From Candidatus Accumulibacter cognatus (GTDB lineage Bacteria; Pseudomonadota; Gammaproteobacteria; Burkholderiales; Rhodocyclaceae), in NCBI GenBank assembly GCA_013414765.1, contig CP058708.1, positions 4,335,553 to 4,399,552 of the forward strand: a DNA stretch of 64,000 bases. The letters run 5' to 3'. The notes under the pieces are model-generated. The model worked only from the letters and a program-made list of their open reading frames with translations. It was not told the origin of the DNA and ran no database searches. The position numbers were made by a program, and so were the translations under genes. Positions 8,902-14,609 of the stretch are shown piece by piece; positions within the stretch are counted from its first letter, which is position 1, and the number at the start of each line of letters is the position of its first letter.

Positions 8902-10260
8902 CTACTGCGGGCGCAACTTGGCCATGCGCTTCAAATTCCACGCCAGGCAGACCAGCGTCCATTCCCCGGTGACCTTCTGCCAACCCCGCAAGGAAAACTG
9001 GCGAAAGCCCATGACCGACTTGATGATGCCGAAGACCGGCTCGACGGTCTGCTTGCGCAACGCATAGAGCGCTCGCCCCGCTCTGGTCTTCAAACGATGC
9101 GACATGGCCTGCACGGGTGTCGCATGCTCCGGTAGCGCGGCCGGTTCGCTATGCCGCTCCCGCCAGTCAGGATGGTGCTCGTCGCGCGCCACCGCGATCA
9201 AGGGGACGATGCCGGCCGCCTCGCACGCCTTGATGTTCTTCTCGCTGTAGAAGCCCGTGTCGGCGATCATCCCGTGCACGGAACCCAGCCCATCGGCCTG
9301 CGCCTGGAGCGTCGCCAGCATCGGCTCGACCTGCTCCTTGTCGTTGGGGGCTTGCGTCACGCCGACCGCCACCACCAGCAGGGTCGCGGGATCAACCGCC
9401 GCCTGGGCGTTGTACGCCTGCTCGAAGCCGCCACCGGCCACCGGCATGATGCGCGATTCTTCGTCGGTCAGATTGATCTGGTCACTGTCCCGTACGCCGG
9501 GCTCGGGGGCTTTGGGCACTCTGCCCCCCCACTTCCTGCCGGTCTCTTCTTCTTTCGCCTTGCGCCGCGCCCTCTTCTCGTCGTACTGCGCCTTCTCTCG
9601 CTGATCGCGCTCCTCGGCCCGCGCCGCAATCTTCGCCTTGGCCGCCGCCATCGCCACCAGCCGATCTTCGCGGCGCTTGATTTCTTCCGGCAGGCTGACG
9701 CCGTCCGGAACCTCCGCCTGATCCGCCTGTTCGGCCAGCGCGAACAGTTCCTGCACCTCCGCCTTGAGTGGCGCTTCCAGCTTTTCGATGTGGCCGTGCG
9801 AAAGCGCACGGTGGCGGGAGGCGTTGGCCTGAATCTTCGTGCCGTCAAGACAGACATTGCCCAGTTTGAGCAGCTTCATCTCCCGGGCCATCTCCAGAAC
9901 CTGCACGAACAAGTCGCTCAGTTCCTCCAGAAAACGCCGGCGGAACGTCGCCAGGCTGTCGTGATCGGGATGGCTGCCGGCGGCAATGTAGCGAAAGGCG
10001 ACCGAATCGTAGGTCGCCTGCTCCAGCCTGCGGCTGGAGAAAATACCCGTCGCGTAGCCATAGACCAGAATGGCCAGCAGCGTCGCCGGATGGTACGCCT
10101 TCGATCCCCGTCCAGCGTACTGCCGCGTCAGCTTCGACAAATCAAGCGAGTCGATCACCTCCACAATGAATCGCGCCAAATGATCCTCGTTCAACCAATC
10201 GTCGAGTGACGGCGGCAGCAGGTAGTCGGTCTTGCGATCGGTGACGATGAAATGGGACAT
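8902..10260 (-). CDS. IS1182-family transposase
   Basis: 452-residue DDE transposase. The N-terminal HTH-like region (PPSLDDWLNEDHLARFIVEV) and LARFRRRF-like block (LATFRRRFLEELSDLF) precede VCLDGTKIQANASRHRALS, which carries the first catalytic Asp. A long charged insertion (about 180-250, AKIAARAEERDQREKAQYDE) precedes the MPVAGGGFEQAYNAQAAVD block, MIADTGFYSEKNIK with the second Asp, and the C-terminal VEPVFGIIKSVMGFRQFSLR with the Glu. Full length for the family, with GGAGGTCCGGC before the ATG. Likely active. Confidence 0.93.
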   Translation of the reverse strand: MSHFIVTDRKTDYLLPPSLDDWLNEDHLARFIVEVIDSLDLSKLTRQYAGRGSKAYHPATLLAILVYGYATGIFSSRRLEQATYDSVAFRYIAAGSHPDHDSLATFRRRFLEELSDLFVQVLEMAREMKLLKLGNVCLDGTKIQANASRHRALSHGHIEKLEAPLKAEVQELFALAEQADQAEVPDGVSLPEEIKRREDRLVAMAAAKAKIAARAEERDQREKAQYDEKRARRKAKEEETGRKWGGRVPKAPEPGVRDSDQINLTDEESRIMPVAGGGFEQAYNAQAAVDPATLLVVAVGVTQAPNDKEQVEPMLATLQAQADGLGSVHGMIADTGFYSEKNIKACEAAGIVPLIAVARDEHHPDWRERHSEPAALPEHATPVQAMSHRLKTRAGRALYALRKQTVEPVFGIIKSVMGFRQFSLRGWQKVTGEWTLVCLAWNLKRMAKLRPQ

Positions 10261-12252: not shown

Positions 12253-12819
12253 CCCTTTCCCCTGAACTGGAAGCGCAAATTCTGCGCTACGACCATGCCG
12301 AACACTGGCGCCGGCACCATGGCCAACCAACTGAAGGGGCATCACGGCACCGTCTCGCGCGTCATCACACAGGCCGGCTGACCACAGGTTGGCGTGCCCA
12401 CGGCGCGCTTCGCGCATCGACCCCTACCTGCCCTTCATTCGCGAGACCCTGAAACAGTTTCCCAGCCTGACCGCGAGCCGGCGCTACGTCATGGTCAAGG
12501 GACGCGGCTACCGCGGGCAGCCTGATCATTTCCGGCATCTGGTCGCCTTGCACCGACCGCGGCCCAAGGACGAAGCCTACCTGCGGTTGCGTACGCTGCC
12601 CGGTGAACTAGGACAAATCGACTGGGCTCACTTTAGTCATCTCGACATCGGCCGCGCCCGCCGGCCGTGGATGGCTTTCGTGATGGGGCTGTCTTGGTCG
12701 CGACAGATCTTCCTGCGCTTCTTTCTCGATGCCCGCATGGAGAATTTCCTGCGCGGTCACACCGCCGCCTTCGCGGCCTGGGACGGCTTGCCGAGGGTTC
12801 TGCTCTATGACAACCTAAG

Positions 12820-14446
12820 CCGGCGAAGCCGGAACCAAACAGGTCAAGGTTTTGGTCATAGCCTTAGCAAGTAATCGGAGGCGGCCATGACACAGATGCT
12901 GACGGATCGATATCACGACCGGCTTGCAGGAACGCTCTCCTGCTACGACCGGATCGTGATTACGGGGACGTTGCCCGGTGCGTGCTACGCGGCGGGGATG
13001 ACGAGTTTTCTCAATGCCAGGCACATTCGAATTTTTGACTATCCGCGCTTTGCCGAGCCGCTGCGTGACCGCATTCGTGAAGCCGCACTGGCTCTGGCGA
13101 CCGCGCAGGGAGCGCGAATCGAGCACGTTGCCAAGGCGCAGATCCGCAAGGAAGACCTCGTTGCCGCGGTGCTCAAGGAGCGTGGGGATCATCCAGGACT
13201 GGTGCATGTGCTCTCCGCCATGGAAGCCTGCAACGCCTACGAACCCTGGCACGACAAGCAAAGTCACCAAACCTTTCTGCGCCACACCTCGGGCAAGTGC
13301 CTGCACTACTATTTCTACTGGATGGACGAAACCCTCGGACTCATCTACCTGCGCGTGCCGACGTGGAGTCCATTCCGGCTGCAGTTCTACTGCAATGGCC
13401 ACAGTCGGTTGGCACACTCGCTGACAACGGCAGGTATCGACTACGCGATGGCGGACAATGCTTTCATCCGTATCGCCGATTGGGAGCGGGCTCAGCAACT
13501 CGCGGACGCCTTCTCGCCGGACACCCTGCACGCTCTCCTGGACCGCTACGCCGAGCAGTGCTGCCCGATCCTCGAGGTCTTTGGACAGTCCTATCACTGG
13601 AGCCTGATGCAGGTGGAGTACTCGACCGATCTGCTGTTCCGCTCCGATACGATCCTGAAGTCGCTCTACGAGGAACTCTCCCGGCAGGCGATCTTCTCGG
13701 TCAAGGCAGACCAGGTCGCCAACTTCCTGGGCAAGAAGATCACACCGCAACTGGCGCAGGAACTCGGCAGCCGCTTCACGACGCGCATCGAGGGCACTTG
13801 CATCAAGCACCATTTTGGCAAAGTATCGGTCAAGATGTACGACAAGTTCAACCGCGTGCTGCGTCTGGAGACCACGACCAATAACGTTTCCTTCTTCAAG
13901 CACCACCGCAAGGTGGAACATCGGGATGGTCACGACTCGCGCGAGATCGCCCCCCTCCGAAAGACCATCTACAGCCTCATCGATTTGCGCGAGATCCTGC
14001 TCGGGTGTAATCGCCGCTATCTCGAATATCTCTCCGCACTGGACGACTTCTCCGCCGACGATCGCAACCTGCATCGACTGACCAGCCCCCAAATCGTCAA
14101 TGGCCATAGCCTCAAGGGCTTCAACTTCTTCGACGCCACTCAGCAAGCCCTGCTGCGCGCGCTTCAGCGTCCCGAATTCAACATCCGTGGTATCCGCCGT
14201 GCCGACCTCGCTCCCTTCTTGCGCCAGATCTCGCCGGCCAGCATCACGCGCTATCTTTGGCGCCTGCGCCAGTTCGGTCTCATCAAGAAGGTCGTTCATG
14301 GCTATCGCTATTACCTTACCCGCCTTGGCCGCTCTACCATCGCCGCCGCTTGTCGAATCACGGAAGAAAGCATCGTTCCGGCACTCGCCCACGCGACCCC
14401 TTGACAGAATCTGCTCACGAAATGTAAAGACCTGAGTCATAAGAGA
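12820..14446 (+). mobile_element. Unassigned 1.6-kb insertion element inside istA
   Basis: The split istA reading frame defines the ends: host sequence reads to CTAAG (12815-12819) and resumes at CTAAG (14447-14451), giving a 1,627-bp insert with an apparent 5-bp duplication. I see no terminal inverted repeats. Instead the left end starts with a perfect hairpin CCGGC-GAA-GCCGG (12820-12832), followed by a second potential stem ACCAAA/TTTTGGT. The right end holds a small palindrome GACCTGAGTC. Only 67 bases precede and 42 follow the single 505-residue gene, so the element is compact like an IS. No known transposase motif recognised. Confidence 0.65.
12887..14404 (+). CDS. 505-aa protein of unknown function, sole gene of the unassigned element
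   Basis: Begins MTQMLTDRYHDRLAGTLSCY after GGAGGCGG. Blocks that look functional include YDRIVITGTLPG (about 20-31), KAQIRKEDLVAAVLKERGDH, KCLHYYFYWMDETLGLIYLR, TWSPFRLQFYCNGH, EGTCIKHHFGKVSVKMYDKF (about 302-321) followed by NRVLRLETTTNNVSFFKHHR, and a C-terminal winged-helix-like stretch (ITRYLWRLRQFGLIKKVVHG, then YRYYLTRLGR). It resembles a family of multicopy uncharacterised proteins I have seen in other genomes but cannot name. No DDE, HUH, serine or tyrosine recombinase signature is clear. The IKxxxGK-x-VKMYDK-x-RVLRLE pattern loosely recalls phage/plasmid rolling-circle initiators. Being alone in a mobile element suggests it moves it. Confidence 0.75.
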   Translation: MTQMLTDRYHDRLAGTLSCYDRIVITGTLPGACYAAGMTSFLNARHIRIFDYPRFAEPLRDRIREAALALATAQGARIEHVAKAQIRKEDLVAAVLKERGDHPGLVHVLSAMEACNAYEPWHDKQSHQTFLRHTSGKCLHYYFYWMDETLGLIYLRVPTWSPFRLQFYCNGHSRLAHSLTTAGIDYAMADNAFIRIADWERAQQLADAFSPDTLHALLDRYAEQCCPILEVFGQSYHWSLMQVEYSTDLLFRSDTILKSLYEELSRQAIFSVKADQVANFLGKKITPQLAQELGSRFTTRIEGTCIKHHFGKVSVKMYDKFNRVLRLETTTNNVSFFKHHRKVEHRDGHDSREIAPLRKTIYSLIDLREILLGCNRRYLEYLSALDDFSADDRNLHRLTSPQIVNGHSLKGFNFFDATQQALLRALQRPEFNIRGIRRADLAPFLRQISPASITRYLWRLRQFGLIKKVVHGYRYYLTRLGRSTIAAACRITEESIVPALAHATP

Positions 14447-14609
14447 CTAAGAGCGCCGTCCTGGAGAGACAAGGCCAGGCGATCCGATTCAACCCGACGC
14501 TGCTGCATTTCGCTGGTCACTACCGCTACGAAGCACGACCCGTGGCGATATACCGAGGCAATGAGAAAGGGCGTGTTGAGCGGGCCATTCGGTACATCCG
14601 GGATGCAAT

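Follow-up and report, generated by a model that had tools for sequence, protein, structure and literature searches.

Comparison of copies defines a mobile element of 1632 bp at positions 12,818 to 14,449, plus strand, of the window (the 64,000-nucleotide stretch of the Candidatus Accumulibacter cognatus genome analyzed here). That this discrete and compact element is real is near certain. Our best reading, to which we assign a probability of roughly 0.57, is that it represents a new family of insertion sequences that moves as a single strand by means of a Rep_trans-like transposase; as part of this joint reading, and at the same odds, the element would be an insertion sequence that is autonomous and whose family is unclassified. 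The reading is supported by the fixed ends, an empty site, the lack of terminal inverted repeats, the asymmetric target, the offset of a hairpin and the order of motifs in the protein. The element has inserted repeatedly and precisely after CCTA, asymmetrically and with a hairpin at its left end. Movement as single-stranded DNA is plausible, as the protein may be a nicking enzyme of the rolling-circle type.

The preliminary description of this DNA proposed a mobile element at this place, in agreement with the copies reported here, which are multiple and have ends that are fixed across the element's own and related genomes. The borders given then (12,820 and 14,446) shift to 12,818 and 14,449, the points at which aligned copies part. 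A DNA search of the genome (5.17 Mb, single contig) gave ten matches to the element. Full, near-identical copies number three (the window copy and those at 2593002 and 990079), and over 1637 bp the latter two share 99.7% identity with the copy in the window, so movement is recent. Two more near-identical copies are split in two pieces (1588795 and 1587034; 2649874 and 2654472), one full copy at 80% identity has three in-frame TAG stops, and two matches are short remnants; remnants apart, the genome holds six insertions. The split copies (L004/L008 and L005/L007) were themselves hit by other insertions: the interrupting DNA measures approximately 1.3 and 3.5 kb, and 3 and 8 element bases, respectively, are present on both of its sides. 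A larger mobile unit carrying the gene as a passenger was rejected, since the copies coincide at both ends. Inverted-repeat ends were rejected as well: the end score of 15 at the element ends is reached by 197 of 500 shuffles, in line with the earlier remark that terminal inverted repeats are lacking. Several of the closest named relatives were found in MAGs labeled Accumulibacter. In the MAG JAKOZI (G006, L046–L071), about a dozen distinct left and about a dozen distinct right ends lie mostly at contig breaks, which suggests that a high copy number of the element broke the assembly. Elsewhere in the window (8902 to 10,260, minus strand) a transposase gene has at least 26 matching places in the genome, and an 86% relative of this gene holds one copy of the element.

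The tetranucleotide CCTA at 12,814 to 12,817 (plus strand) is the target, retained 5' of the element. Clades A and B (clade labels A to E are our own) gave 40 distinct left junctions, 37 of which have CCTA, and an empty paralogous site has it once. In the own and related genomes the count is 31/34 distinct junctions, the remaining three reading CTTA, CCTG and TCTA, and in genome G347, whose protein is approximately 50% identical, it is 6/6. The left end of the element always faces CCTA, and the site is usually CCTA↓A (arrows mark junctions). The first host base after the right end is A in 21 of 24 junctions, and in four of six in G347; the right ends of the former set were collected with a pattern containing CTA, hence CTA at the right is in that set partly by construction. 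Right-end exceptions, placed by alignment, are GATTA (L013), GACGATA (L021) and GGGACCA (L034), plus two truncated matches.

Empty sites were sought for four insertions, and one is clear. This site (L122, same genome, 98% identity) reads CATACC-CCTA-GACAATCC, with CCTA present once, and pairs with the split copy at 2649874/2654472, where the filled site reads CATACC-CCTA↓element...GACTA↓GACAATCC. A 93% relative (L123) has CCCA in place of CCTA. For the copy at 990079, relatives of fitting length read CCCA or ACCA and not CCTA; CAAGCC-CCCA-ATGAC is the sequence in L090, a relative at 93%, and in paralogues at 86% within this genome, with CCTA absent. A joined site was not found for the copy at 2593002, and for the 80% copy bases around the insertion point are missing from the best relative. 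The junction counts and the empty site therefore indicate insertion after CCTA with a duplication no longer than TA or CTA. There may be a target duplication of TA or CTA, indistinguishable from a core shared by both junctions. The sequence CTAAG, noted earlier on both sides of the window copy, was rejected as a target duplication because other copies have different right flanks: on the left, CCTA is host target, as the empty site demonstrates, and on the right, CTA is the element end or a shared core, while the A and G that follow belong to the host and are not the same in other copies. In two relatives, L044 (ends CCTG/GATTA) and L013 (CCTA/GATTA), the two ends of the element differ. This is a weak argument against duplication, as both are single copies with right ends set by analogy, and AATAGG directly follows the presumed right end in both and in L047, all three being in different genomes. 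Either the end of the element is longer in that lineage, or AATAGG is a preferred target. Both the left junction and the target have CTA↓A, as does the right junction of most copies. This is the pattern expected of a single nickase that reads all three places.

The window copy sits in an istA remnant, and the clean split of the istA reading frame described earlier is contradicted. At the insertion place an intact homologous istA (L188) reads GACAACCTGAAGAGC, whereas the joined window flanks read GACAACCTAAGAGC, which is 1 nt shorter; istA was therefore frameshifted beforehand, or one base was lost.

The left end carries the hairpin CCGGC-GAA-GCCGG (12,820 to 12,832, plus strand), which starts 2 nt after the junction, an offset that is the same in six left-end types. 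Stems are perfect in types A, B, C, D, the Rhodococcus group and E (5, 5, 6, 5, 5 and 11 bp, respectively), with loops of three bases in five types and of six bases in one. Types A and B have the same stem sequence and the others differ, giving five stem sequences in six types. As background in sampled chromosomes, a 5-bp stem with a 3-nt loop lies at this offset after 15 of 9379 CTA sites, and loops of 3–6 nt raise this to 55/9379. Compared with shuffles, the left 40-mers gave p values of 0.010 for the window and 0.047 for L075, 0/300 for L022, and 0.09–0.33 for the others. The evidence for the left hairpin is thus its fixed position and not its energy, because only some of the 40-mers fold better than shuffles. 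At L120, where the position of the left end was guessed, p was 0.74 and the hairpin was not seen. The stretch AACCAAACAGG (12,833 to 12,843, plus strand) adjoins the hairpin with small changes among clade A copies, and AACCAAAA is found also in clades B and C. AACCAAA after the hairpin is common to clades A, B and C despite their differing targets; in clade A, judging by sequence, the AGG after the hairpin could pair with the CCT of the target in a guide-like manner. The right end, AGTC-ATAAGA-GACT-A (14,435 to 14,449, plus strand), ends in CTA and forms a small hairpin that is not strictly kept. The 45-nt right end of the window copy folds no better than shuffles (p 0.65), and no hairpin common to the six right ends folded was found (p 0.007 for B and 0.08–0.65 for the others). 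Of the hairpin ends proposed at the outset, the left one is real, and its 2-nt offset recurs in other clades; support for hairpins is confined to the left end.

Relatives at 23–30% protein identity occur in the same genus and on plasmids of Rhodococcus, Mycobacterium, Paraburkholderia and Caballeronia. Matches were found in 18 of 101 related genomes and in 15 of 369 genomes of the class, the own genome being included in both counts. Relatives with 23–50% identity, compared through copies with unrelated flanks, have sharp ends too; those with ends compared contain a single gene, and from clade to clade the ends have diverged along with it. The one-gene architecture therefore moves in several lineages, with (C)CTA or TA as target. 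Clade B (G347) is approximately 1.65 kb, with left CCTA↓ and right TACTA↓. Clade C is approximately 1.73 kb, with left TA↓GCGCGGCCGTTGGCCGC in both loci holding a left end (L016 and L032) and right CATA↓G in 3/3 (L016, L017 and L019). Clade D, approximately 1.81 kb, has left CTA↓ in all four outer ends (L079, L182, L078 and L020) and right AATCTA↓G in all five right ends (the same loci and L161); L020 has a second, inverted copy of the hairpin inside the element, without CTA. For clade E, known by left ends, the junction is CTA↓GG-CTTTTCCCAAG (L037 and L022). The Rhodococcus group, counted with D, reads CTA↓CC-GGGGC-TGC-GCCCC at the left (L080, L183 and L184). Its junction is approximate, because a single plasmid carries both L080 and L183 within a longer duplication, and their flanks already diverge 10 nt ahead of the presumed cut. 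Among viral contigs, one scan gave relatives at two loci, another gave one of those contigs again, and three further scans were without a relative. The clade E relative L120 lies on contig IMGVR_UViG_3300043184_000187 of IMG/VR, classed as viral, and adjoins a large gene that, in our reading of the open reading frame, resembles a primase-helicase.

Six near-identical clade B copies are found in G347 (contig C2) at 39.9, 183.7 and 199.3 kb and at 3.500, 3.569 and 3.611 Mb (L253, L257, L262, L265, L267 and L269). All are on the same strand, in a region of approximately 420 kb that spans the contig ends; the GC skew switches sign there, and the region may be the terminus. Strand bias was judged in G347, the GC skew of G000 and G839 being too noisy. 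The copies split 3:3 by replichore, so lagging-strand insertion of the IS608 kind is unsupported in this genome.

The only intact gene of the element, as first described, is the 505-residue open reading frame at 12,887 to 14,404 (plus strand, stop included), which encodes the putative transposase. Its dN/dS is approximately 0.13–0.22 against four intact homologues, and values of 0.11–0.22 were obtained for six pairs among five intact clade A genes; the gene evolves under purifying selection. Pfam, NCBIfam and PHROGs gave no family match for the catalytic region, and NCBIfam has no model for the window protein. Among the annotated relatives whose records were opened, one is called an ArsR regulator (Paraburkholderia) and the others hypothetical proteins. 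No such element was found in the titles and abstracts of the literature searched, among the matches listed. An undescribed class of element, as suggested earlier, is thus supported as far as these libraries, annotations and literature go. A winged helix-turn-helix occupies the C-terminus (approximately residues 410–500; 14,114 to 14,386, plus strand), with Pfam matches in relatives and weak PDB profile matches to ArsR/MarR proteins. In the relative L075, HTH_5 is above its cut-off (E 3.4e-6) and HVO_A0261_N is below its own (E 4.8e-7); the latter is matched by nine of 28 members at E 0.5 or better. PDB sequence searches returned three chance-level matches for the single protein and mainly weak winged-helix matches for profiles. 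Stray Pfam matches outside the winged helix (YAcAr, E 0.01; IcmF_helical, E 0.0036) are weak, occur in one member each and were set aside as chance. The decayed member L161 matches an ISL3 transposase in a neighboring reading.

Conservation was taken from columns 1–400 of a 28-row alignment (A6), counted over rows with letters; several rows begin with N-terminal extensions that precede the true start, and decayed copies are included (L161, L015 and those of the L048 type). Invariant are R22 (20/20), G171 (28/28) and Q242, E244, K316, Y318, R326 and E328 (27/27 each); D21 is kept in 18/20 rows and K320 in 25/27. Within residues 1–400, Y318 is the only tyrosine and H140 the only histidine conserved at 85% or more, H172 being kept in 21 of 28 rows. 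In Rep_trans enzymes the motifs are described as N' (Asp), I (RxD), II, III (YxKxxE) and IV (W/LxRxE), with the tyrosine on strand 10 and the metal ligands on separate strands (PMC5714925, PMC4797284). Q242/E244, K316/Y318 and R326/E328 match in order the RxD, YxK and RxE of these accounts, with D21 for N'. The candidate motifs are encoded on the plus strand at 12,947 to 12,952 (D21-R22, motif N', first metal ligand; predicted strand 20–28), 13,610 to 13,618 (Q242-x-E244, motif I, second metal ligand; predicted strand 237–246), 13,832 to 13,846 (K316-x-Y318-x-K320, motif III with the nucleophilic tyrosine; strand 313–318 at low confidence) and 13,862 to 13,870 (R326-x-E328, motif IV, third metal ligand; strand 324–329 at low confidence). 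The preliminary description had likened the blocks IKHHFGKVSVKMYDKF...RVLRLETT to rolling-circle initiators. The place was right, as K316-x-Y318-x-K320 and R326-x-E328 appear to fit Rep_trans motifs III and IV; the kinship would be with Rep_trans and not with HUH initiators. Motif order, predicted strands and invariance together suggest a Rep_trans fit, the hhalign scores being non-significant. On these grounds the protein is somewhat more probably than otherwise a tyrosine nickase of a Rep_trans-like (PF02486), non-HUH kind, with a TBP fold and, at its C-terminus, a winged helix.

The fit has its discrepancies. Motif I of the family is QxE vs RxD in Rep_trans, motif II (T/S-x-Y/E-x-G) and the E of YxKxxE have no conserved equivalent in A6, and Y318 and E328 are 10 residues apart vs 23 in the staphylococcal Rep (PMC4797284). 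The nearly invariant D147, N170 and N191 are unexplained by the Rep_trans reading. PF02486 is absent among the 25 listed of the 27 Pfam families matched by the 28 members (E 0.5 or better), and neither PF02486 nor PF25227 has a match in the own genome. A first AlphaFold model from eight sequences had a mean pLDDT of 38. A second (residues 1–350, 11 sequences) reached 62 with a pTM of 0.63, and four others average 46–55. In the second model D21, E244, Y318 and E328 are on separate predicted strands. Its first half has a strand, helices, four strands and a helix; its second half repeats this with a strand, helices and three of four expected strands, at low confidence. The order of predicted strands and helices is for the most part that of a TBP-like fold. 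Confidence is lowest at motifs III and IV (10-residue means of 25–58 over residues 241–350). Foldseek gave best E values of 0.019 (PDB) and 0.011 (viral), neither significant, and no Rep_trans or TBP structure is named among the best 50 PDB rows. The second-ranked viral match is the TBP-fold A0A2N9QVX7 (E 0.021, TM 0.22), whose probability of 0.57 is the highest among the best 50 rows and which is a reported match of RepSNJ2, an archaeal Rep_trans relative (PMC13107129). We take this match to the model as a hint only. By hhalign, A6 against Rep_trans gave E 0.54, with 33 of 150 shuffles as good and the alignment away from the motifs; alignment A2 gave E 0.079, with 4/150 and 2/60 shuffles as good. 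Against Rep-Arvir, two of 60 shuffles were as good for A6 and for A2 alike, with alignments away from the motifs. Motifs III and IV were covered by one of the local alignments; the rest lay elsewhere. The shuffle test has little power, because the accepted pair of Rep_trans and Rep-Arvir fails it too (5/60). The relation of RepSNJ2 to Rep_trans is itself stated to be unrecognizable in sequence (PMC13107129), with which the 5/60 result agrees. Mutations in RelSt3 (PMC6499999) and RepSNJ2 (PMC13107129) are described as showing that sites of this type require the tyrosine and most of the acidic residues.

A new insertion-sequence family whose enzyme has another unrecognized fold (for example a diverged RNase H-type DDE/DNE or other double-strand nuclease), with a TA or CTA duplication and the hairpin as a palindromic protein-binding site, is possible but on the whole doubtful. 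The TA found at both junctions in nearly all copies would serve as a 2–3 bp duplication as well as a shared core, D147...DN191...E244 resembles, in our reading, an RNase H arrangement, and none of the fold matches is significant. Yet position 190 varies (D, S or G in the rows of A6), the invariant KxY and RxE would be left unexplained by a DDE enzyme, and the element lacks the inverted repeats of DDE insertion sequences; the differing ends of L044 and L013 speak weakly against it as well. That the gene is a passenger, whether regulator or plasmid Rep, on a unit mobilized in trans by another transposase is very improbable. The ArsR annotation of the Paraburkholderia relative and the many other insertion-sequence copies in the genome would suit it, but the gene fills the element, is the sole gene in the relatives with compared ends, and diverges together with those ends.

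An element that has diverged within one of the known HUH single-strand families (IS200/IS605 Y1 or IS91 Y2) would share the style of the ends, namely a flanking target tetranucleotide, no inverted repeats, no long duplication and a subterminal hairpin. We consider it most unlikely, and an HUH transposase was rejected on the lack of an HUH motif and on the histidine conservation given above; the candidate tyrosine is on a predicted strand and not a helix, and no Y1 or IS91 model is among the 25 of 27 Pfam families listed. IS200/IS605 elements are described as likewise inserting on the 3' side of a short target that is retained at the left, without inverted repeats and with a hairpin near the end (PMC6006769). 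They are unlike the present element in their HUH motif and helix tyrosine, and here the hairpin is 2 nt from the cut, the target is CCTA(A) and no fork bias is seen in G347, the one genome judged. IS91/ISCR elements resemble it in their single gene, lack of inverted repeats and lack of a demonstrated duplication; the present protein, of 505 residues with a C-terminal winged helix, has neither the conserved tyrosine pair nor the HUH motif. A catalogued family, a passenger gene or an artifact is not supported by these tools.

The Rep_trans and MOBT enzymes share with the present family the order of D, an acidic residue two after Q/R, R/K-x-Y-x-K and R-x-E, the candidate residues on separate predicted strands and a separate DNA-binding domain. 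In contrast, there is no significant similarity in sequence or fold, and their genes reside in a plasmid, phage or ICE, whereas the present gene is in a free-standing transposable element. Rep-Arvir proteins (DUF7845, PF25227; for example RepSNJ2) are described with a similar layout, a catalytic part of approximately 300 residues followed by a MarR-like winged helix, and with K-x-Y and an N-terminal acidic ligand (PMC13107129). They differ in belonging to archaeal viruses and plasmids, with no transposition reported in that account (PMC13107129), and the profile match to them is non-significant.

Under the Rep_trans-like reading, the protein would bind the hairpin beside the left junction, and Y318, aided by a metal that D21, E244 and E328 coordinate, would cut one strand after TA at both ends. 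Joining of the right-end 3'-OH to the left-end 5'-phosphotyrosine would give a single-stranded circle with the junction CTA↓AG, and the donor would be resealed or copied after excision. The reverse reaction at another CCTA↓A would insert the strand, and replication would make the element double-stranded.

To our knowledge, the known single-strand transposases are HUH enzymes. In its treatment of the subject, one review names only HUH enzymes in this role (PMC5714925). Rep_trans enzymes start plasmid and phage replication and ICE conjugation, and use as a transposase is not described in the accounts consulted. We lean slightly toward a single-strand transposase of a third kind, unrelated to the others: a TBP-fold, Rep_trans-like tyrosine nickase that would read a hairpin 2 nt from the cut, insert after (C)CTA and move a superfamily of bacterial transposons extending from beta-proteobacteria to Rhodococcus and Mycobacterium plasmids. 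If so, single-strand transposition would have arisen independently in a second tyrosine-nickase fold, and a small, strand-specific and sequence-directed inserter would be on offer. Annotators could then give a name to a superfamily whose members are at present labeled regulators or hypothetical proteins. Even with another enzyme fold, the family of elements stands as an unclassified one.
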